Source: Rhodospirillales bacterium
GTDB lineage: Bacteria > Pseudomonadota > Alphaproteobacteria > Rhodospirillales > Defluviicoccaceae
Direction: 5' to 3'
DNA length: 64,000 bases
NCBI GenBank assembly: GCA_016793925.1
Contig: JAEULH010000036.1
Location: 1 to 64,000, forward strand
Positions 7,563 through 38,869 of this stretch are shown in pieces. The notes under the pieces were generated by a model. The model had not been told where the DNA came from. It made no database searches and worked only from the letters and a program-made list of their open reading frames with translations. Position 1 is the first letter of the stretch. Every line of letters starts with the position of its first letter. The translations under genes were made by a program, and so were the position numbers.

Positions 7563-8984
7563 TCAGAAGCGGTAGCGCAGTCCGAGGGACAGGGTTGTCG
7601 CGTGGGTCTCGGCCTGGCCCCGGATGTCGACGCGGCCGGCCGCCGGCGTGCCTGCGAAGAAGGTGCGCGAGATGTCGATGTCGGCCCGCTCGGCCCGCGT
7701 ATGAAAGATGGCGAGGTCGATGACGGCGTCGGCGACGTCGGCGAACGGCCGGTAGCTGCAGCCAAGGCCGAGGGAGTAGTTGTTGCCTTCGGGAACGCCG
7801 GCTGAGCGGTAACGATCGCTCGTCGGGGTCGTCTCGAAGCGAAAGCCTGCGCGCAGGCTCAGATGGCGGTTCCAGCGATACTCGCCGCCGACGGACAGCG
7901 CGTAGGAGTCATGATAGTCCTCGGGTATGACGATATCGTCGGCCCCGTCCGCCGTGCGGACGCGCACCTCGTTGAGCCGGCTCCAATTGAACCACTGAAA
8001 ATCAGCCAACAGGGTCAGGTGCGCGCCCACCTCCTGCGCCACGCCTGCCGTGACGATGTCGGGAAGGCGGAGCTTGGCCTTTGCGTCTGCGCTCATGTTG
8101 GCGGCCGCCAAGGGGCCGGCGAGACCGGAAAGACGCGCGCGACCCTTCAGCGTGTGATCGATGCCGGAGCGATAGTGAACGCCGATCCGCGTGGTCGGCC
8201 ATGGCCTGATCAGAATGCCGGCGTTGAAGCCGACGCTGAGGTCGTCGCCCCGGAGCCGGCTGCGCCCGTCCGTCGCCGCCGACGGCCCTCCGGGCGCAAG
8301 GGTATTGGGAACGGCGCTGGTCAGGCGGATATCGACGCTCTGCACGTCAAGACCGGCGCCGAGCGAGACGATGTTGTTCACCCGCAGGGCGATGGCCGGC
8401 GAAACGTCGATTGTCGTCAGGCTCGAGTCGATGGAGTCATAGCGGCCGAACCAGTCCGCGCCGTAGTCGAGGCTGAGACCGGACGGCGACGTGACGCCGA
8501 TGCCGAGCCATAGCGGCGTGCCGGAAAGCGGGACGGCGGCGTACACATTCGGCACCACCTCCGGCCGAAAGGGATTGCCGCCGTTGCCGCCGGCGTAGGC
8601 GAGGGCGACGCCGCCGGTGCCTGGCGTCGTCGCCGTGGATCCGCGGTCGCGAAAGGACGTCTTGGCAGACAACACACTTGCGCCGGCCATCACCTGGGCG
8701 CCGTCGAGTTCCGTCATTCCCGCCGGGTTCGCACTCACGGTTGCCGCGTCATCGGCGCCGGCAGCCTGGCCCGCGGCGGCGCGCCCGACGCTTCTCGCGC
8801 TCTGCTGGGTCACGTAGAAGCCGGATGCGGCGGCGTCGCGGCCGGTTGACATCGCGGTGAGGAGCACGACCCAGATGACGAGATTTGCCGCCGCGAGGAT
8901 CCCCCTCCTTCGCAGAACGAGCGGATGGCCAACCTCGCAACGGCCCGGCGGCGAAAAAACCTCCCCAAGCTTGACACAACCCAT
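7563..8984 (-). CDS. fadL: FadL/OmpP1-family outer-membrane transporter
   Basis: About 473 residues. After a long basic leader and a hydrophobic signal segment (ILAAANLVIWVVLL, cleavage probably before SGFYV), the mature N-terminus shows the FadL hatch signature: SGFYVTQQSARSVGRAAAG, then SANPAGMTEL. A beta-barrel follows, ending in GLRYRF with a C-terminal Phe. FadL channels carry long-chain fatty acids and other hydrophobic molecules across the outer membrane. The start is uncertain: ATG at 9014 would leave almost no leader after the -10 at 9029-9034, so ATG 8984 is preferred, though it lacks a clear ribosome binding site. The gene lies between luxI and luxR. Confidence 0.88.
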   Translation of the reverse strand: MGCVKLGEVFSPPGRCEVGHPLVLRRRGILAAANLVIWVVLLTAMSTGRDAAASGFYVTQQSARSVGRAAAGQAAGADDAATVSANPAGMTELDGAQVMAGASVLSAKTSFRDRGSTATTPGTGGVALAYAGGNGGNPFRPEVVPNVYAAVPLSGTPLWLGIGVTSPSGLSLDYGADWFGRYDSIDSSLTTIDVSPAIALRVNNIVSLGAGLDVQSVDIRLTSAVPNTLAPGGPSAATDGRSRLRGDDLSVGFNAGILIRPWPTTRIGVHYRSGIDHTLKGRARLSGLAGPLAAANMSADAKAKLRLPDIVTAGVAQEVGAHLTLLADFQWFNWSRLNEVRVRTADGADDIVIPEDYHDSYALSVGGEYRWNRHLSLRAGFRFETTPTSDRYRSAGVPEGNNYSLGLGCSYRPFADVADAVIDLAIFHTRAERADIDISRTFFAGTPAAGRVDIRGQAETHATTLSLGLRYRF

Positions 8985-29986: not shown

Positions 29987-31690
29987 CTATCCTTCCGGCC
30001 TGGCGGCGGCGGTGGCCACCGCGCCGTCGGCGGGCGGCGGTTCATCGACGACACACCAGCGGGCGGTCTCCGCCGGGGCGCCCGCTTCCCCGCCGGCCGA
30101 TAGACCTTCGTTCGAGCATCCCGGCCAGTAGCCGCGGCGGCAGGACCGGTTGCGCTCGGTCCGCCACTGGCCTGCCGTTCTGCAGTTTCGCCAGTTCGTG
30201 TCCGTCGACAGAACCTTGTCGCGGTAGATCTCGTTCAACCAGAACTTGCCGATCACATCGCCGGTGGGCAGCAGGTCCACGACCCAGTCCCACTTGCGGG
30301 GCTCGGCGGGCCGGGCGACGGCGAGCGCGCCGCGGGCGACGGCGCGCTGGTAGCCCTTAAGAAAATGCGATTCCAGCGTTATGCCGAGCTTGCCTGCGCG
30401 CGTTTGAAACATGAGCTCGGTGACGAGCTGCTCGCAGTCGGCGGGGAGGACGAACGCGGTCGGGAAAACGAGAGATGTTCCCAAAAACGTCCCGGCGCGA
30501 GCGAAAGGATCGATCTCGAAGAAATAGCCGACGATCCGCATCTCGGCGACGACGGTGTCGATATGCGCCGCGATCGAGGCGTCGCTGAGGTTCACCCAGC
30601 GTCCGCTGACCTGCCGCCATACGGCCATGGCCTTGACCTCATCGGGGTCCGTCGCCGCCCAATGCCTCTCCAGAGACTGGGGAAAGTCGCGACCCTGGCC
30701 CGCGCGCTCGCGACGGATCATGGTCCCGATGGGTTCGCGGGCGCCGACCGCGCCCCACGAGACGACGTGGACGAGATGATGCGACGGGGCAGGTTGCGCG
30801 TCGAGGAACTCCTGAAGCATGAAGCCGACGCCCTGGGCGGTCACGGCGCCCTGGCTTTGCCCGGTAATCAAGACTTCGCCGCCATGCTCGCGATCCTCGG
30901 CGTACGCGGCCGCGTCGGCGATCAGGCGGAGCGCGGCGGTCGAGACCATGTGCGCGCGCGCCATGGTCAGGCCGGCGGCCCAGTCTCGGAAGTCGGTGTT
31001 GACGAAAACCTGCGTTCCCGCGATTGCGTAGATGCGGTGGGCTTCCCCCGGCGCCGGGTCGCGTCGCTCGAAGGCGATGGCCTTGAACCCGGTGTAGGTG
31101 TCGAGGTAGGTGGCCACGACGTCGTAATCCGGCAGGTCCGTCGCCGCGGCGGGAGGCGCGTCGCCCGCTTCGTGCAGATCGGGCAGGCGGTGTTCGGCGA
31201 CCTCATAGGCAAGGTCGGACGCGACGACCGTGGCTTCGTCGACCCGCCATAGCGGAGACAGCGAAGACCGCCTGTCGTCGACGACCTGGGTTCGGCGCAA
31301 GTCGTCGTAAACGAGATCGTTCGTCAGCGACCGGGGGAACGCGAGATCGCGCAGGCCATCGATCTGGATGTCGACTGCCGCGGGCCCGAGCGGCTCGGGA
31401 TGATCGACCTCGAACGACATCCGGGCGCCCTCGTCCGCTTGCGCGGCATCAAGGATCGCACGGGCGTGGGGGACGGCGCTTGGCGTGATGACCCGAACGT
31501 CCCGACGCGCCTCGCCGGCCGTGACGACGGGCGCGCCGGAGCAGTCGACAACATCATGCAGGCTTGCAGCTTCCGCCGGCAGGACCCATCCCGCCAGAAC
31601 CGGTCCGCCGAGGAATGCGACGATCCTGAGTGCCAACAGGGTGCGGGAGCACCAGGGAGCGCTTCCTGCCTGTCGGTCCAGTCCTGCCAC
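29987..31690 (-). CDS. Secreted hydrolase-like protein with GxSxG motif
   Basis: A 567-residue protein. The signal peptide (LLALRIVAFLGGPVLAGWVLPAEA) ends near residue 41. The lipase-like nucleophile elbow GQSQG sits in VLITGQSQGAVTAQGVG in the middle of the chain, preceded by YDVVATYLDTYTGFKAIAF, which resembles the entry strand of secreted alpha/beta hydrolases. A cysteine-containing C-terminal tail follows (NRSCRRGYWPGCSNE). A substrate cannot be named. GTG 31690 has GGAGG at a good distance. It is convergent with the ABM-like gene (3-base gap). Secreted lipase, esterase or a non-enzymatic relative are all possible. Confidence 0.65.
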   Translation of the reverse strand: MAGLDRQAGSAPWCSRTLLALRIVAFLGGPVLAGWVLPAEAASLHDVVDCSGAPVVTAGEARRDVRVITPSAVPHARAILDAAQADEGARMSFEVDHPEPLGPAAVDIQIDGLRDLAFPRSLTNDLVYDDLRRTQVVDDRRSSLSPLWRVDEATVVASDLAYEVAEHRLPDLHEAGDAPPAAATDLPDYDVVATYLDTYTGFKAIAFERRDPAPGEAHRIYAIAGTQVFVNTDFRDWAAGLTMARAHMVSTAALRLIADAAAYAEDREHGGEVLITGQSQGAVTAQGVGFMLQEFLDAQPAPSHHLVHVVSWGAVGAREPIGTMIRRERAGQGRDFPQSLERHWAATDPDEVKAMAVWRQVSGRWVNLSDASIAAHIDTVVAEMRIVGYFFEIDPFARAGTFLGTSLVFPTAFVLPADCEQLVTELMFQTRAGKLGITLESHFLKGYQRAVARGALAVARPAEPRKWDWVVDLLPTGDVIGKFWLNEIYRDKVLSTDTNWRNCRTAGQWRTERNRSCRRGYWPGCSNEGLSAGGEAGAPAETARWCVVDEPPPADGAVATAAARPEG

Positions 31691-32692: not shown

Positions 32693-32989
32693 TTAATTTT
32701 TCTTCGGCTGCCCGGTTGTGCAAGTGAGGCTGCCGCTGGTGTTATCACAGCAGATGAGCTTACCGGTGCACGGATCCGTGACGCAACTGTTGATGGGCCG
32801 CGGCGACGTGCACTTGACATCGAGGATACCGCCGCCGATAGCGTTCCAGCCGGGGACGGCGGGCGGAGCCAATGCGGCGTCGGCTGAAGCGGTCGGCGCG
32901 AGGCAGACGGCCCAGATTGCCCAAATCATCAGACCGGCTGCAAGCGCGCGGATCGGCGTCTTCGTATTCAGGGTCACGTGTAGAGACAT
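32693..32989 (-). CDS. Small secreted six-cysteine protein
   Basis: A 98-residue preprotein. The signal peptide (RALAAGLMIWAIWAVCLAPTASA) leaves a mature part of about 60 residues with six cysteines spaced C-x8-C-x4-C-x5-CC-x8-C, as in a disulfide-knotted peptide. ATG 32989 has GGAGG nine bases upstream. It lies 31 bases after the FecR-TPR-barrel gene on the same strand, so both are almost certainly one transcript. No family recognised. It could be a secreted ligand, a cargo or an accessory of the barrel. Confidence 0.75.
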   Translation of the reverse strand: MSLHVTLNTKTPIRALAAGLMIWAIWAVCLAPTASADAALAPPAVPGWNAIGGGILDVKCTSPRPINSCVTDPCTGKLICCDNTSGSLTCTTGQPKKN

Positions 32990-33020
32990 AAGGATCACCC
33001 TCCTCTCTATTTGTTCAAGT

Positions 33021-36000
33021 CTAGAAGTTCAATGTCAGCCGCCCGATAATGGTTCGATCCGGAATATAGGGGCTGAGCGCCGGGTCGTTCCCGACCTTCC
33101 GGTAACTGTCGTCCTGATAGTTGAAGTCGTCATCTAGGATGTTCTGCACCCCGACGCTGACGAGGCCACGCCGATGGGGGAAGCGGTAGCCGACGCCGGC
33201 GTCGAGGACATAGAAGGTGTCGTCGCCCTCGGGCAAAGTGCTGCTGCTCTGCCGCTTCAAGTCCTGATAGACAAAGCTGACCCCGGCGGCGGCGAAAATG
33301 CCGCTCGGGCTGAAATAGCGCACGCTCAACGGCGCGGCGTAGGTGCTCACGTCGTTGGGCAGGCCGAGGTCATCGTCGTCGCGCTGGTAGCGATCGTAAA
33401 GCAGCTCGGCGCTGAGCGCCCATTCAGGGTGCGGAGCCCAGTTCAGGTAGGCGCGCGCCCCGGTCTCTTCTGCGGTTGTGGACCGGCTGGTCCCGTCAAT
33501 GTCGATAAAATACTCATCGAGATCGCGGTGTGTCGCCTCGAGCCCCCCGTAAAGGCGCTTCGCCAGCCGAAGGTCGATACCGACGCCGTAGAGCCACGAC
33601 TTGGTGCCGTTCGTGTCGTCGAAGAACTGGTTGAAGCCGGCGACCTGGGTCGGCTGGATGGTCTGGTTGGCGAGAAGAGCGGGCTTCAGCGTCCGCACCG
33701 CTGTGGCGCGGACGCGCAACGCCTCGGTCACGTCCCACTGCACCCCGAACTTCGGCGCAATGAGGTCGAAGTTGGTATCGGCTTCCTCGTAGCTGTCATA
33801 GCTCAACCCGAGGGTCCAGGTCACGTCCGCCGGCAGGACGACGTCGCTGTAGACGTAGCCCGTGTACTGCTCGATGGTCTGGTCCGTTCGGGTCTCGAAA
33901 GCGAAGAAATCACTATCGAAGCTGCTGCGCCGACGGACGTCGATGTCGTAGGCGCCGAAGCCGGAACGGATATTGTAACGCTCCCGGCTCAGGATCCACT
34001 GAGCCTCGCCCTGTACCCCGCGCTGCTTGGCCCGACCGTCGAACGTCGAGGGACCGCCGAACAGCGTTCCGCTGTCCGTCAGCTTGTCGTTGCGGTTGCT
34101 GTAGATGACGGATGCAATGACGTCGTGGCCGGGAGCCGGCGAATAGCGGGCGCCGATGCGCGCAGTGTCCTGATCGAGATCGCGGTCGAGGTCCGGCGAA
34201 AACGTGTGCGGATCGAAGTTCAGCCGGAGGTCGCCCGACTCCGTCCTTCGGCTGCGCAGCTCGGCCTGGACGTTGAAGGTCGGGCTGATCGCCGCCTGGG
34301 CGTAGACGTTGTAGATGTCGTGGCTGAGGTCGTTGTTCTGGCGAAAGCCGTTGGTCTGGTAGTGGAACTGGCCGGCGCTGAGGGAAAGCTTGTTGTAGAT
34401 CGCCGAGACGACCGCCTCGTTCCCGTAGGTCTGGTTGTTGCCGACCGCGCCGCTCAGATCGAGGCGCACCTGATTGCGCTCGAAGACGGGCGAAAACTCG
34501 TTGAAGCCGCCGCCGAGCACGCCGGCGGTGGCAAAGTTCAGCCGCGTCTCGGCGAAACTCGGCTGCACCGGGTTGATGTTGATGTCCTGCAGAAGCTGCG
34601 CCTGAAGAAGCTCGCTGACGCGGGCGATTTCGGTGCGCGGCTGCGCCGCGTAGGTGTCGGCGAGAAAGCGGTGCGCGGACGCGTTGCCGGGATCCACCGT
34701 GAGCGAGCGCGTCGCCTCGTTCGCCCCGAGCACGTCGAAGCCGAGGTCGTTGTAAATCCGCGCAACACCGACCTGGCGCGAGGCCAGGTCCTGATCGAGC
34801 AGCAGGCGCGAGCGATAGACGGCGCGGTTGTCGTTGAGCTCGATCGAGCGCTCCAGATCGTCCAGCGCCTCCACCGGCCGGTTTTCGCTCTGCTTGAGGA
34901 TGGCGTCGTAGAGCCAGGGCGTCGGATCGCGCGGATCGAGATCCTTGGCGATGGCGTACTGCTCGCCGGCGAGCTCCTCGCGCCGTTCAGCGAAATAGGC
35001 CTTGCCCAGATACGACCGCAGGAGCGACCGGTTCGGGTCGAGCCCGGCGGCGACCTCGATGTCGTTGCGACCGCGGCCGAGGTTGCCGGCGCGAATGGTG
35101 GCGAGGCCCAGGCCGAACCGCGCCAGCGGGCTGGCGCTGTCGAGCGAGACGGCCTTGCCGAACGCATCCTTCGCCGAGCCGTAGCGGAAGCCGGCGAGGG
35201 CAACAAAGCCGCGGATGGTCTGCACTCTCTCCAGATCGGGCGCGAGCGCCGTTGCCTTGTCGATCGCCCGTGCGGCCCGGTTGACATAGCCGAGTTCGAG
35301 CCAGAGTTCGGCCAGGCGCGCCCACGCCAACGCATTTTCCGGATGATCCGCCACGGCCTTCAGCAGGGTGTCGCGCGCGGCCTCGAGCCGGAGGTTGGCT
35401 TGCTGGGCGTAGGAGAGGGCGATCGCCGCTTCGGCGGAGTCGGGTGCCAGCCGCATCGCCCGCTCGGCGTCGGCGAGCGCAGCGGCCGGAGCGTCGTTGA
35501 CCACGGCGATCACTGCGCGCAGCGAATAGGCGCGCCCGGCCTGCGGATCGATGGCGAGGGCGCGGTCGAGTGCGGCGCTGGCCTCATCAAGCCGCCCGAC
35601 CGAAAGCAGCAGCGAGGCGGCGAGAACCTGGTAATCGGCGCCACGCTGGCTTGCTGGCACCGCGTCGAGGGCGGCGAAGGCCGCCTCGGTCTCGCCACGC
35701 GAGGCGGCCATGGCCGCCTCACGCAGCGCCGGCGGCCATGGCGGCGCCCGGCTGGCAGGACCGGTGAACAGGATCGGCGGGTAGTAGACGGCCCACTGGA
35801 CGGCATTGCGCGGCTGAACGAGGAGGACGCTGACCGGCTTCTGGTCGGCGCGCGCGAGCGCCGACTGCCCGGCCGTCAGCGTCAGGCGTCCATTGTCGTT
35901 GGCGGCGGCGACCTTGCCCTCGAATACGGTAACCTGGGCGCGATCGGTCGCGACGGCGACGAGGAACTCGGTGCCCTCGACCGCGGCATTGACGAAGGGC

Positions 36001-36380
36001 GTGTTGACGCTGAGCGCCCGCGCGCGCCGGCTGAAGAAATAGAGCTTGCCGAAGATCAGTTCGAGCAGCGATGGCGCTTCGGCTTCGACGCGGACGAGGC
36101 GGAGCGTCGTGTTCTGGTCGATGCGAATGACGCCATCGTCCATAAGCACGATGGCGGCGCGGCTGCGGTTGCCAACGCGGATCAGGTCGTTGACACACAG
36201 CGCCTGGTCGAGCACGGCCGGCCGCCAGATGCCCCCGACCTGGCGCTGAAGATCAACGCTGCCCTGTACGGAGGCGACCCTGCCGATCGGCGCCGCGCAG
36301 CGTTCGGCCGCGGCGACCGTCGTCGCAAACAGCAAAAGCGCAGCCGCGCCGGCAAAAGCCGGCAGCCGAAGCAGACGCAT
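33021..36380 (-). CDS. FecR-TPR-outer-membrane beta-barrel fusion protein
   Basis: A 1119-residue exported protein with three parts. After the signal peptide (1-25) comes a FecR domain at about 30-180 (GRVASVQGSVDLQRQVGG, AIVLMDDGVIRIDQNTTLRL, NTPFVNAAVEGTEFLVAV). Then about ten TPR-like helical repeats run from 210 to 560 (SVGRLDEASAALDRALAIDP and relatives). From about 600 to the end is an outer-membrane barrel ending in IIGRLTLNF with terminal Phe. FecR in other systems senses a TonB-receptor signal in the periplasm; here sensor, protein-interaction repeats and barrel are one chain and no ECF sigma gene is near. ATG 36380 has GAGGGGG upstream. Confidence 0.88.
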   Translation of the reverse strand: MRLLRLPAFAGAAALLLFATTVAAAERCAAPIGRVASVQGSVDLQRQVGGIWRPAVLDQALCVNDLIRVGNRSRAAIVLMDDGVIRIDQNTTLRLVRVEAEAPSLLELIFGKLYFFSRRARALSVNTPFVNAAVEGTEFLVAVATDRAQVTVFEGKVAAANDNGRLTLTAGQSALARADQKPVSVLLVQPRNAVQWAVYYPPILFTGPASRAPPWPPALREAAMAASRGETEAAFAALDAVPASQRGADYQVLAASLLLSVGRLDEASAALDRALAIDPQAGRAYSLRAVIAVVNDAPAAALADAERAMRLAPDSAEAAIALSYAQQANLRLEAARDTLLKAVADHPENALAWARLAELWLELGYVNRAARAIDKATALAPDLERVQTIRGFVALAGFRYGSAKDAFGKAVSLDSASPLARFGLGLATIRAGNLGRGRNDIEVAAGLDPNRSLLRSYLGKAYFAERREELAGEQYAIAKDLDPRDPTPWLYDAILKQSENRPVEALDDLERSIELNDNRAVYRSRLLLDQDLASRQVGVARIYNDLGFDVLGANEATRSLTVDPGNASAHRFLADTYAAQPRTEIARVSELLQAQLLQDININPVQPSFAETRLNFATAGVLGGGFNEFSPVFERNQVRLDLSGAVGNNQTYGNEAVVSAIYNKLSLSAGQFHYQTNGFRQNNDLSHDIYNVYAQAAISPTFNVQAELRSRRTESGDLRLNFDPHTFSPDLDRDLDQDTARIGARYSPAPGHDVIASVIYSNRNDKLTDSGTLFGGPSTFDGRAKQRGVQGEAQWILSRERYNIRSGFGAYDIDVRRRSSFDSDFFAFETRTDQTIEQYTGYVYSDVVLPADVTWTLGLSYDSYEEADTNFDLIAPKFGVQWDVTEALRVRATAVRTLKPALLANQTIQPTQVAGFNQFFDDTNGTKSWLYGVGIDLRLAKRLYGGLEATHRDLDEYFIDIDGTSRSTTAEETGARAYLNWAPHPEWALSAELLYDRYQRDDDDLGLPNDVSTYAAPLSVRYFSPSGIFAAAGVSFVYQDLKRQSSSTLPEGDDTFYVLDAGVGYRFPHRRGLVSVGVQNILDDDFNYQDDSYRKVGNDPALSPYIPDRTIIGRLTLNF

Positions 36381-36500
36381 AGACCCCCTCGCAGCGATTG
36401 CGTCCCACACGCACGGCTCTTTCCAGAGCTCACTTTCCGCACAGGTTCGCGTTTCGCGTTCCTGTTACGCCTTGCACCCACGAGCACGCTGCATAATCAA

Positions 36501-36530
36501 AGTATAGCTGTTGCAGACATGGCCTGACAA
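36501..36530 (-). promoter_or_regulatory. Promoter of the FecR-TPR-barrel gene
   Basis: Minus strand TTGTCA (36530-36525), an 18-base spacer, then TATACT (36506-36501). Match to consensus is 5/6 at both boxes. It predicts a leader of about 115 bases before the ATG at 36380. Confidence 0.55.
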
Positions 36531-36578
36531 CTGCATCTCCTCCCTGATTGCGCCCATATCCATTATCGCTGCGCAAAG

Positions 36579-36606
36579 CGGCGCCACTTCGGCTTGTATG
36601 GCGCCG
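36579..36606 (-). terminator. Hairpin between the CHASE2 cyclase and FecR genes
   Basis: 8-bp stem CGGCGCCA/TGGCGCCG (36599-36606 with 36579-36586) with a 12-base loop and CTTTG after it on the minus strand. It may partly end the cyclase transcript before the separate FecR promoter. Confidence 0.45.
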
Positions 36607-36625
36607 CCCTTCCAACGGAGGCGGC

Positions 36626-38869
36626 CTACTTGGAGTCAACGCGGATGATCGTCGGATCGCCGTCCAGGCCTCCGGCTTGGCCAAGCGCGAGGCTGCGGAC
36701 GCGATAGAAATTCGACGGGCCGTCGGTCGGATGCGTGCTCACGAGGTCCGCAAAGCCCTTTGCAGCCCGCTCCCAGTCGCCAGCCTGGAACGCGGCCAGG
36801 GCCTCGGCAAAGCTTGCGCAGAGCGCCACCATCGCCGGCGAGGCCTCCGGGCGTTTGCAGATCACCTCGACGACGCCGACCGGGTCGATTTTGCCGCGCA
36901 GGCGAAAGCGTCCGACCGGGCGCAGCAGGAAGCGCTCGCCAAGAGGAGCGGCAATCGTATCGGAGACGAGGAGCGACGTGCCGATGAGCTTGTTCAGGCC
37001 CTCGATGCGCGAGGCGGTGTTGGCGATGTCGCCGATGATGCTGTAGGCATAGTGGCCGCCGCCGCCGGCGTGGCCGACGAAGATCCAGCCGGCGTGGAGG
37101 CCGAGCCTCGTCGGCAGGTTGCGCTGGCGCTCGCTGCCGGCGAACCGGCGCACAGCCGCAAGCACCTCCAGCCCGGCTTCGCAGGCGCTGATGTGCACGC
37201 CGTCGCGAGGAGCCGCATTGGTCCAGGCGCACATCATCCCATCGGCGCGAAACTCAAGGACGTCCGCGCCGTGGCTCTTTATGGGCTCGGCGATGGCGGC
37301 GAAGTAGGCATTCAGGTAGCGGGCCACCTCCTGGGGGCTCATGGCCTCGGCGGCGGCCGTGAAGTTTTCGAGGTCGGAGGCGAGGCACGTCGCGTAGACG
37401 GTCTCGCCGAAGTCGCCGGGCCGGATCGCGCCGCCGTCGCGCAGGCCTTCGACCACCTTCTCCGGCAGGTAGTAGCTGATCGCCTGAGACATCGTCTGGC
37501 GCTGGCGATGGGCGATCATGTACTGGGCGAGGATGCCGAGGAAGAGCGCCAGCGGCAGCTGGAGCAGCAGCGGCGTCGCCAGCGGCAGCCACAGGTTGAA
37601 ACCGTTGAACACGGCCTGGGCGGCGAGCGCATAGATCGCGGCGGCGGCAATGACCGAGGGCACGATGACGACGGCCGGCAGGAGGGCCGCGGACAGCCCG
37701 AGGACGAGGCCGACAATGCCGAGCAAAGCCGCCGTCATGATGCCGGAGGCTGGTTCGATCATTCGCCGCGTAAGCATGTTCGCGAACGCCGTGGCTGCGA
37801 TCTCAACGCCGCTCAGGTCGACGCCGTTGTTCCAGGTGAAGACGCTGTAAAAGCCGTCCGGCTGGTCGGGATCGTCGACTTCGGCCGCGCCGAGGAAAAC
37901 GGCCTTGCCGGTGAGGTCGATCGTTTCATGCCGCTCCGGAGAGAGGAGAGCCGCAAAGGGGATGACCGGTATCGTTCCGGGCGGGCCGTAGAAATTGACA
38001 TAATGGCTGTTCGGTCCGCTGTAGAGGCTCGCCACGGCGCTGACCAGGGGTGACGCATTCTCCGCCCTGAGCAGGTTGTCGGCGTCGACCACGCTGCGAT
38101 AGGCGCTTCGCGCGGTCTGCATCGCCTCGCCGAAGTTGCCGCGCAGACCGCCGGCGAGAAACGGCATCCGACCGACATCCAGCATGCCGTCGCTCTCGAC
38201 CGCGTTGACCCAGCGGCAATAGGCCTCCAAGGCGTAAATCTGCAGTGCCACGGCCGGCATGGTCGGACCCTCGCCGGCGGTGCTCTGGAAGCTCCAGAAC
38301 TGACGCACGTTGGCGCCGACCTTCGGCAGCGGGAAGGGCGCGACCGCGGCCGCCGCATGAGCCAATTCGGGTATGGGCTCGGTGATCTGCTCGAGGCGAA
38401 GCTCCGCAGCCGCGCCCGATCCTGCTCCGAGCGTCGGCCCCTGGCGTCGTTCGAGCTGCTTGAACAGAATGACCTTGTTGGCCTCGGCGATGGCCGTTGC
38501 AAGGGCCGCGTCTTCCGCCGGTCGGGTGTAGTCGCTGAGAATGAGATCGACAGCGATCACGCTGGCGCCCGCGCGGTCGATGGCGCGGATAATGCGCGCC
38601 TGCACGGAGCGGGGCCAGCGACGCGGCTCGGCAGGCAGCCCGAGGTATGCGGCGGAGCGTTTGTCGAGTGCGACGACCGCCACGTTTGGCGGCGGCGCGA
38701 TGGGTCCGCGCAGCAAGAACAGCCAGCTCAGGCCCAGCGTCTCTTCGAACGCGATGCCGGGCGGGCTCAAGGCGAAGATCGCGCCGGCCGCACCGACGAC
38801 GGAGCCGAGGACCAGAGCCTTGAGCCAATGAAGCCTTGGCCTATGTTTGCGCTGAGAGATTTGATTCAC
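36626..38869 (-). CDS. CHASE2-domain class III nucleotide cyclase
   Basis: A 747-residue inner-membrane receptor. Helix 1 (16-34) is followed by a periplasmic CHASE2 domain (about 40-370; VVALDKRSAAYLGLP, VIAVDLILSDYTRPAEDAALA, GKAVFLGAAEVDD), three helices (375-452) and a cytoplasmic cyclase domain (490-680). Metal-binding Asp499 (ASDLENFT) and Asp543 (FRADGMM) and the transition-state pair Asn617/Arg621 (NTASR) are present, so it should be active. The substrate-choosing pair is Glu539 and Ser610, where adenylyl cyclases have Lys and Thr/Asp; this points to GTP or relaxed use. The start is GTG. The FecR-TPR-barrel gene follows. Confidence 0.9.
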   Translation of the reverse strand: MNQISQRKHRPRLHWLKALVLGSVVGAAGAIFALSPPGIAFEETLGLSWLFLLRGPIAPPPNVAVVALDKRSAAYLGLPAEPRRWPRSVQARIIRAIDRAGASVIAVDLILSDYTRPAEDAALATAIAEANKVILFKQLERRQGPTLGAGSGAAAELRLEQITEPIPELAHAAAAVAPFPLPKVGANVRQFWSFQSTAGEGPTMPAVALQIYALEAYCRWVNAVESDGMLDVGRMPFLAGGLRGNFGEAMQTARSAYRSVVDADNLLRAENASPLVSAVASLYSGPNSHYVNFYGPPGTIPVIPFAALLSPERHETIDLTGKAVFLGAAEVDDPDQPDGFYSVFTWNNGVDLSGVEIAATAFANMLTRRMIEPASGIMTAALLGIVGLVLGLSAALLPAVVIVPSVIAAAAIYALAAQAVFNGFNLWLPLATPLLLQLPLALFLGILAQYMIAHRQRQTMSQAISYYLPEKVVEGLRDGGAIRPGDFGETVYATCLASDLENFTAAAEAMSPQEVARYLNAYFAAIAEPIKSHGADVLEFRADGMMCAWTNAAPRDGVHISACEAGLEVLAAVRRFAGSERQRNLPTRLGLHAGWIFVGHAGGGGHYAYSIIGDIANTASRIEGLNKLIGTSLLVSDTIAAPLGERFLLRPVGRFRLRGKIDPVGVVEVICKRPEASPAMVALCASFAEALAAFQAGDWERAAKGFADLVSTHPTDGPSNFYRVRSLALGQAGGLDGDPTIIRVDSK

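Follow-up and report, generated by a model that had tools for sequence, protein, structure and literature searches.

A candidate NsrA-type relay between outer and inner membrane, with a small exported partner protein, in a Rhodospirillales bacterium

Introduction

When a cyclase with a periplasmic CHASE2 sensor, an outer-membrane protein joining FecR, TPR and barrel parts, and a small secreted cysteine-rich protein are encoded side by side, do they form one signalling unit, and what would each contribute? This question is raised by three genes, here called P0001, P0002 and P0003, in a 64,000-nt stretch of DNA (the window; contig JAEULH010000036.1, positions 1 to 64,000 of the forward strand, assembly GCA_016793925.1) from a Rhodospirillales bacterium of the Defluviicoccaceae. 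A preliminary description had suggested that the barrel carries or senses the peptide or another ligand and that its periplasmic part reports to CHASE2, which sets the cyclic nucleotide level. The analysis reported here leads us to favour an NsrA-type relay from outer to inner membrane with a self-encoded ligand or plug, a reading to which we give an even chance.

Results

The barrel protein resembles NsrA

P0002 had been read as a fusion of FecR, TPR repeats and an outer-membrane barrel in one 1119-aa chain, and the Pfam scan bears this out (FecR at E 1e-15, TPRs, and OMP_b-brl at 31 bits). With FecR, TPR and C-terminal beta-barrel together, the exported chain has the NsrA-type layout. Indeed, an hhalign comparison with NsrA spanned 1003 columns at probability 100 and E 6e-40, with about 22% identity; judged by its sequence, P0002 is remotely homologous to Sinorhizobium NsrA over its full length.

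An AlphaFold2 model based on 53 sequences (predicted local distance difference test score, pLDDT, 90.2; predicted template modelling score, pTM, 0.88) contains a FecR beta-domain (residues 33-186), TPR helices (217-597) and 22 strands (637-1118). Foldseek searches of the Protein Data Bank returned TonB-dependent receptors, with FhuE on top (E 9e-16), then FpvA, FptA and FecA. The predicted barrel has the 22 strands of these receptors and lacks their plug domain: only a 40-residue linker, and no globular N-terminal plug, connects the TPRs to strand 1 in the model, and the Pfam scan gave no plug or TonB_dep_Rec match. Its most conserved loops, 3-4 (0.78) and 13-14 (0.79), both face outward by strand order; most other outer loops are variable, with a mean conservation of 0.14-0.27. 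A plain porin or polysaccharide exporter was also considered for P0002 and was rejected on the result of the fold search.

Passages of PMC7529298 describe NsrA as an outer-membrane receptor that perceives protein signals together with CyaK or CyaD1/D2. At about 1,567 kb on pSymB of S. meliloti, a CHASE2 cyclase gene and a 1227-codon frame with a P0002-like layout overlap. Genes are not named in that record; the size and layout of the frame and its neighbour, a CHASE2 cyclase gene, lead us to infer that the pair is nsrA and cyaK. The overlap is present in both S. meliloti and S. chiapasense. The S. meliloti system of NsrA with CyaK, CyaD1 or CyaD2 and the locus described here are alike in having a FecR-TPR-barrel outer-membrane protein beside a CHASE2 class III cyclase. 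The receptors are homologous over their whole length and the cyclases at 23% identity, and the protein ligand attributed to NsrA in those passages accompanies the same layout. They differ in that the rhizobial gene order is reversed (receptor first, overlapping), no small protein is linked there, receptor identity is low, and the rhizobial cyclase retains the adenine-selecting lysine. Because P0002 is homologous to NsrA, whose gene adjoins that of CyaK, the relay half of the earlier model has a precedent. For the proposed route from barrel to CHASE2 this precedent is experimental, according to the passages cited above.

The CHASE2 cyclase gene accompanies the barrel gene across genomes

To judge linkage we used 80 fetched loci whose barrel proteins align with P0002 over the full length at about 40-50% identity, together with relatives from the window's own family, and limited the count to barrel genes with 2.8 kb or more of upstream sequence, of which there were 67. 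A homologous CHASE2 cyclase gene lay within 3 kb of 56 of these 67, and 49 of the 56 were upstream on the same strand. Five of the 11 exceptions are second barrels, located 5-7 kb from the cyclase of the same cluster. The association exceeds chance, and the conserved linkage on which the preliminary description had made its model depend is therefore present. Clustering of the neighbours at barrel loci revealed no third gene as conserved as the cyclase.

Phylum-wide, at least 32 of 150 CHASE2 genes had a FecR gene within 5 kb where about 0.5 would be expected; the figure is a lower bound drawn from the best 150 entries of each list. The barrel occurs in only 4 of 297 genomes of the window's order, all four in the window's family, and in 72 of 120 genomes of a Nitrosomonas-type family (that of G112); this patchy distribution fits horizontal transfer. 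In the source genome there are two CHASE2 genes, each adjoining a FecR gene.

At the second of these source-genome loci (L102, G000:C109:6614-8118) the FecR gene is followed directly by the CHASE2 cyclase gene, there is no barrel match, and the cyclase keeps the base-selecting lysine, judged by eye (GTIDKFAGD). Elsewhere, FecR-matching frames of genomes G044, G053, G105 and G117 are 1234-1273 aa long, and three of them lie 3-4 kb from CHASE2 genes; these look like further NsrA-type receptors from other families. In magnetotactic Magnetospirillum, the gene next downstream of mtxA encodes a CHASE2 cyclase (PMC4439547), and mtxA may be part of the same signalling logic.

The cyclase appears active, and its product may be cyclic GMP

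P0001 is, as first described, a CHASE2 cyclase of 747 aa (Pfam CHASE2 at E 4e-22, class III cyclase at E 1e-12). It has the metal-binding residues Asp499 and Asp543 and the transition-state residues Asn617 and Arg621. Among 47 aligned cyclases the arginine and the two metal aspartates never vary, and 45 have the asparagine, so these CHASE2 cyclases look active from their sequences.

The base-selecting pair is atypical. P0001 has Glu539 and Ser610 there and lacks the adenine-selecting lysine, which is found in just two of the 47 cyclases, including that of S. meliloti. In class III cyclases a glutamate at the base-selecting position is the guanylate-cyclase residue; because the partner residue, serine, differs from that of guanylate cyclases, the product cannot be assigned from the glutamate alone. 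This unusual pair makes the label 'adenylate' unsafe for P0001, and we rejected it. On residue identity, cyclic GMP (cGMP) appears at least as likely a product in the clade of P0001 as cyclic AMP.

Small cysteine-tailed genes follow the barrels of relatives

A small exported protein encoded behind the barrel is apparently new relative to the known relay. In relatives, a small and highly divergent open reading frame (ORF), usually of 70-230 aa, recurs 3' of the barrel gene. Gammaproteobacterial downstream proteins are larger (250-370 aa, 10-19 cysteines); overall these partners span about 40 to 370 aa, and their extreme C-terminus is the conserved part. We scored a tail as cysteine-bearing if at least two cysteines lay in the last 40 residues and one in the last 8. 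A small gene of this kind follows 44 of 81 barrel genes, compared with 41 of 374 other long ORFs at the same loci (odds ratio 9.7, p 2e-16), in agreement with the linkage to small cysteine-rich genes that had been anticipated. The strict tail motif C..G..C gave an odds ratio of 21 (25/89 ORFs just downstream of barrels versus 140/7635 others).

Partner tails often end in a disulfide-type beta-hairpin, C..GG..C, as in NPTCGWYFFGGRWYWLCW, KNPYCYWVYQGGSLVERCF and SSPGCVYYFWGGRWWKFCS. A profile built from 19 tails and run on 120 whole genomes made 14 matches at E 0.002 or better, all 14 of which adjoin a separately found barrel. Because many of the 14 are or resemble training sequences, this result speaks to specificity, not sensitivity; the convergent partners at L044 and L045, outside the training set, were recovered at weak scores. 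The AlphaFold2 model of the L012 partner places strands at 72-77 and 80-85 with Cys72 and Cys85 at their base (pLDDT about 90 there), and a minimal partner beside a barrel, L056:13512-13754, consists of a signal peptide and the hairpin only. In close pairs the ratio of nonsynonymous to synonymous substitution rates (dN/dS) is about 0.09, a sign of purifying selection, from which we conclude that the partner genes are real; in other pairs the partners are 29-54% identical versus 75-77% for their barrels. Many partners have a lipobox, and ten partners gave no Pfam match above the cut-off. The motif family was seen in Nitrosomonas and elsewhere among gamma- and betaproteobacteria, and also in genomes of alphaproteobacteria, 'Deltaproteobacteria' and Nitrospirota.

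Other small proteins were seen at barrels as well. In the partners at L018, L027, L034, L035, L040 and L082 the cysteine hairpin is kept and an export signal is not recognisable. Behind some second barrels, at the Nitrosomonas-type loci L033, L058, L062, L074 and L101, sits another small family (TYTVKK...C...EEGQI, 75-82 aa); still others occur at L026/L028 and L070/L084. After the L100 barrel at 7812, a larger protein with RTX-like repeats takes the place of the small cysteine protein.

P0003 and the arrangement of the locus

P0003 is a 98-aa protein with an export signal and six mature cysteines, much as the preliminary description had it, and its ATG lies 31 nt past the barrel stop codon behind a good Shine-Dalgarno sequence, AGGAGGG. 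No Pfam or NCBIfam match was found for it. A distant DNA search in plasmids gave no match. P0003 shares the C-x8-C tail spacing with the downstream proteins of close relatives at L006 (CAVISGRRTC) and L013 (CVTVGGRRTC). By position, export signal, cysteines and this tail, P0003 is a positional counterpart of the partner family, not a proven member; its assignment rests on position and layout because it is an orphan by sequence.

The cyclase, barrel and small-protein genes are consecutive and all on the minus strand, as described before (Table 1). That they make one unit holds in part: the barrel and peptide genes are tightly spaced and the linkage is conserved, but a single transcript including the cyclase is uncertain given a 246-nt gap between cyclase and barrel genes, which holds one weak promoter-like site (1 found, 0.6 expected). 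TelA, Halogen_Hydrol and BON-LysM genes on the same strand lie before the cyclase gene, and an AHSA1 gene follows that of the peptide. The earlier statement that no sigma/anti-sigma pair is encoded here is right for these four flanking genes, and classic Fec-type sigma regulation was rejected on that basis. A further ORF of 567 aa (window positions 29987-31690, minus strand) has no Pfam match and carries a lipase-like GQSQG motif.

Table 1. Features of the cyclase-barrel-peptide locus, in window coordinates
Feature	Position	Strand	Basis
CHASE2 class III nucleotide cyclase P0001, 747 aa	36626..38869	minus	CHASE2 and cyclase Pfam domains, catalytic residues
CHASE2 sensor domain of P0001, periplasmic, aa 43-387	37709..38743	minus	PF05226, E 3.9e-22
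Class III cyclase catalytic domain of P0001, aa 494-660	36890..37390	minus	PF00211, E 9.9e-13
FecR-TPR-barrel protein P0002, NsrA-like, 1119 aa	33021..36380	minus	Pfam, AlphaFold2, NsrA homology
FecR domain of P0002, aa 66-157	35910..36185	minus	PF04773, E 1.4e-15
TPR superhelix of P0002, aa 217-597	34590..35732	minus	Pfam TPR matches and helix pairs in model
22-stranded beta-barrel of P0002, aa 637-1118	33027..34472	minus	DSSP on model; Foldseek
Conserved loop between P0002 strands 13 and 14, aa 899-926, PTQVAGFNQFFDD	33603..33686	minus	Conservation; extracellular by strand order
Exported six-cysteine small protein P0003, 98 aa	32693..32989	minus	ORF, export signal, Shine-Dalgarno sequence
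C-x8-C stretch (CDNTSGSLTC), P0003 C-terminus, candidate hairpin	32720..32749	minus	Sequence and spacing in relatives
Shine-Dalgarno sequence AGGAGGG of P0003 gene	32998..33004	minus	Sequence
Weak promoter-like site in cyclase/barrel gap	36501..36530	minus	1 found versus 0.6 expected; not above chance

Discussion

We consider it probable that receptor and cyclase signal together. The 22-stranded barrel, by its fold and its homology to NsrA, would be a surface receptor in which TPR superhelix and FecR replace the usual plug. Its periplasmic FecR/TPR arm would touch the CHASE2 domain of the linked cyclase and alter its activity, as conserved linkage and NsrA genetics suggest, and the cyclase, with its active-site residues in place, would produce a cyclic nucleotide. 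The small exported protein, given its position and enrichment, may work as partner to the receptor, most likely as its ligand or as a lumen plug that can be removed; whether it is either of these could, in our judgement, fall both ways equally. In the wider family the partner would act through the predicted disulfide-closed C-terminal beta-hairpin, and by such a relay the cell could signal its own density, the state of its envelope or its secretion. A more specific version is autocrine peptide signalling, widespread among Gram-negative bacteria, with the C-terminal disulfide hairpin of the exported small proteins as ligand of the plugless barrel and the FecR arm passing the signal to the CHASE2 cyclase, which may make cGMP; this we regard as possible but doubtful.

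Several observations weigh against a self-encoded ligand or plug. By the simple tail criterion 37 of the 81 barrel genes have no cysteine-tailed small ORF, and several of these have larger secreted cysteine-rich proteins. A secreted ligand needs an export signal, and none is recognisable in some partners (e.g. those at L027, L035 and L040). The rhizobial nsrA-cyaK pairs do without a small gene of this sort, so this type of relay does not depend on the partner. P0003 itself has the position of a partner but scored about 0 bits against the tail profile, and a search for its homologues in 297 genomes of its order gave background only. Its orphan status would be explained if the NsrA-type pair sensed an external molecule, much as a host protein is sensed by the rhizobial pairs, which have no linked peptide, and if, in this window at least, the small protein were unrelated and downstream by chance. 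We find this improbable in view of the strong positional enrichment of small genes in relatives, the close spacing and good Shine-Dalgarno sequence of P0003, and the secreted cysteine-rich genes at the same place in its closest relatives.

Two further explanations give the small protein a task at the barrel that involves no ligand. It might be a built-in subunit that seals the plugless 22-stranded pore in the way LptE closes LptD, as a structural plug or assembly factor and not as a signal; the absence of a globular plug from the stretch that joins TPRs to strand 1 in the model, and the lipobox of many partners, fit such a role, but in several pairs the partners diverge fast relative to their barrels, they reach 370 aa, and rhizobial systems do without them, which makes this unlikely. 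Alternatively the TPR-barrel could be a secretion channel, with the small protein as cargo, the hairpin as secretion signal, and a cyclase that regulates or monitors export. A TPR-then-barrel layout is indeed that of PgaA, BcsC or Slam, and a conserved extreme C-terminus on a cargo of otherwise widely varying length (about 40 to 370 aa) would suit a secretion signal. However, the barrel resembles TonB-dependent receptors rather than exporters of 14-18 strands, the passages of PMC7529298 describe its homologue NsrA as a receptor, the hairpin-only gene at L056 would be a signal without cargo, and partners without a signal peptide would miss the periplasm; we think export unlikely.

An NsrA-type relay with its own ligand or plug would also stand apart from other systems. 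In Campylobacterota, passages of PMC9239204 describe a CHASE2 adenylate cyclase, a FecR outer-membrane protein and a TPR protein as clustered and note horizontal transfer; there FecR and TPR are separate proteins accompanied by a phosphodiesterase, and those passages describe no small cysteine protein. The FecA-FecR-FecI system likewise combines a FecR domain with a 22-stranded barrel of TonB-receptor type, but here barrel and FecR share one chain with TPRs between them and no plug, and the linked output is a cyclase, with no sigma factor among the scanned neighbours. In the Burkholderia operon of a LysM-FecR protein and a CHASE2 histidine kinase (PMC5192318), a FecR protein also adjoins a CHASE2 sensor, but the output is a kinase, and neither a barrel nor a small cysteine protein is described.

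Rhizobial NsrA is the best lead on what CHASE2 domains sense. If operons of the present kind encode the ligand beside the receptor, CHASE2 sensing becomes directly testable with a synthetic peptide; such operons would likewise show a cyclase taking a sigma factor's place behind a TonB-receptor-type barrel, and would contribute a new family of small proteins that can be recognised by their motif. The autocrine reading, if true, would provide the first self-encoded ligand system for CHASE2.
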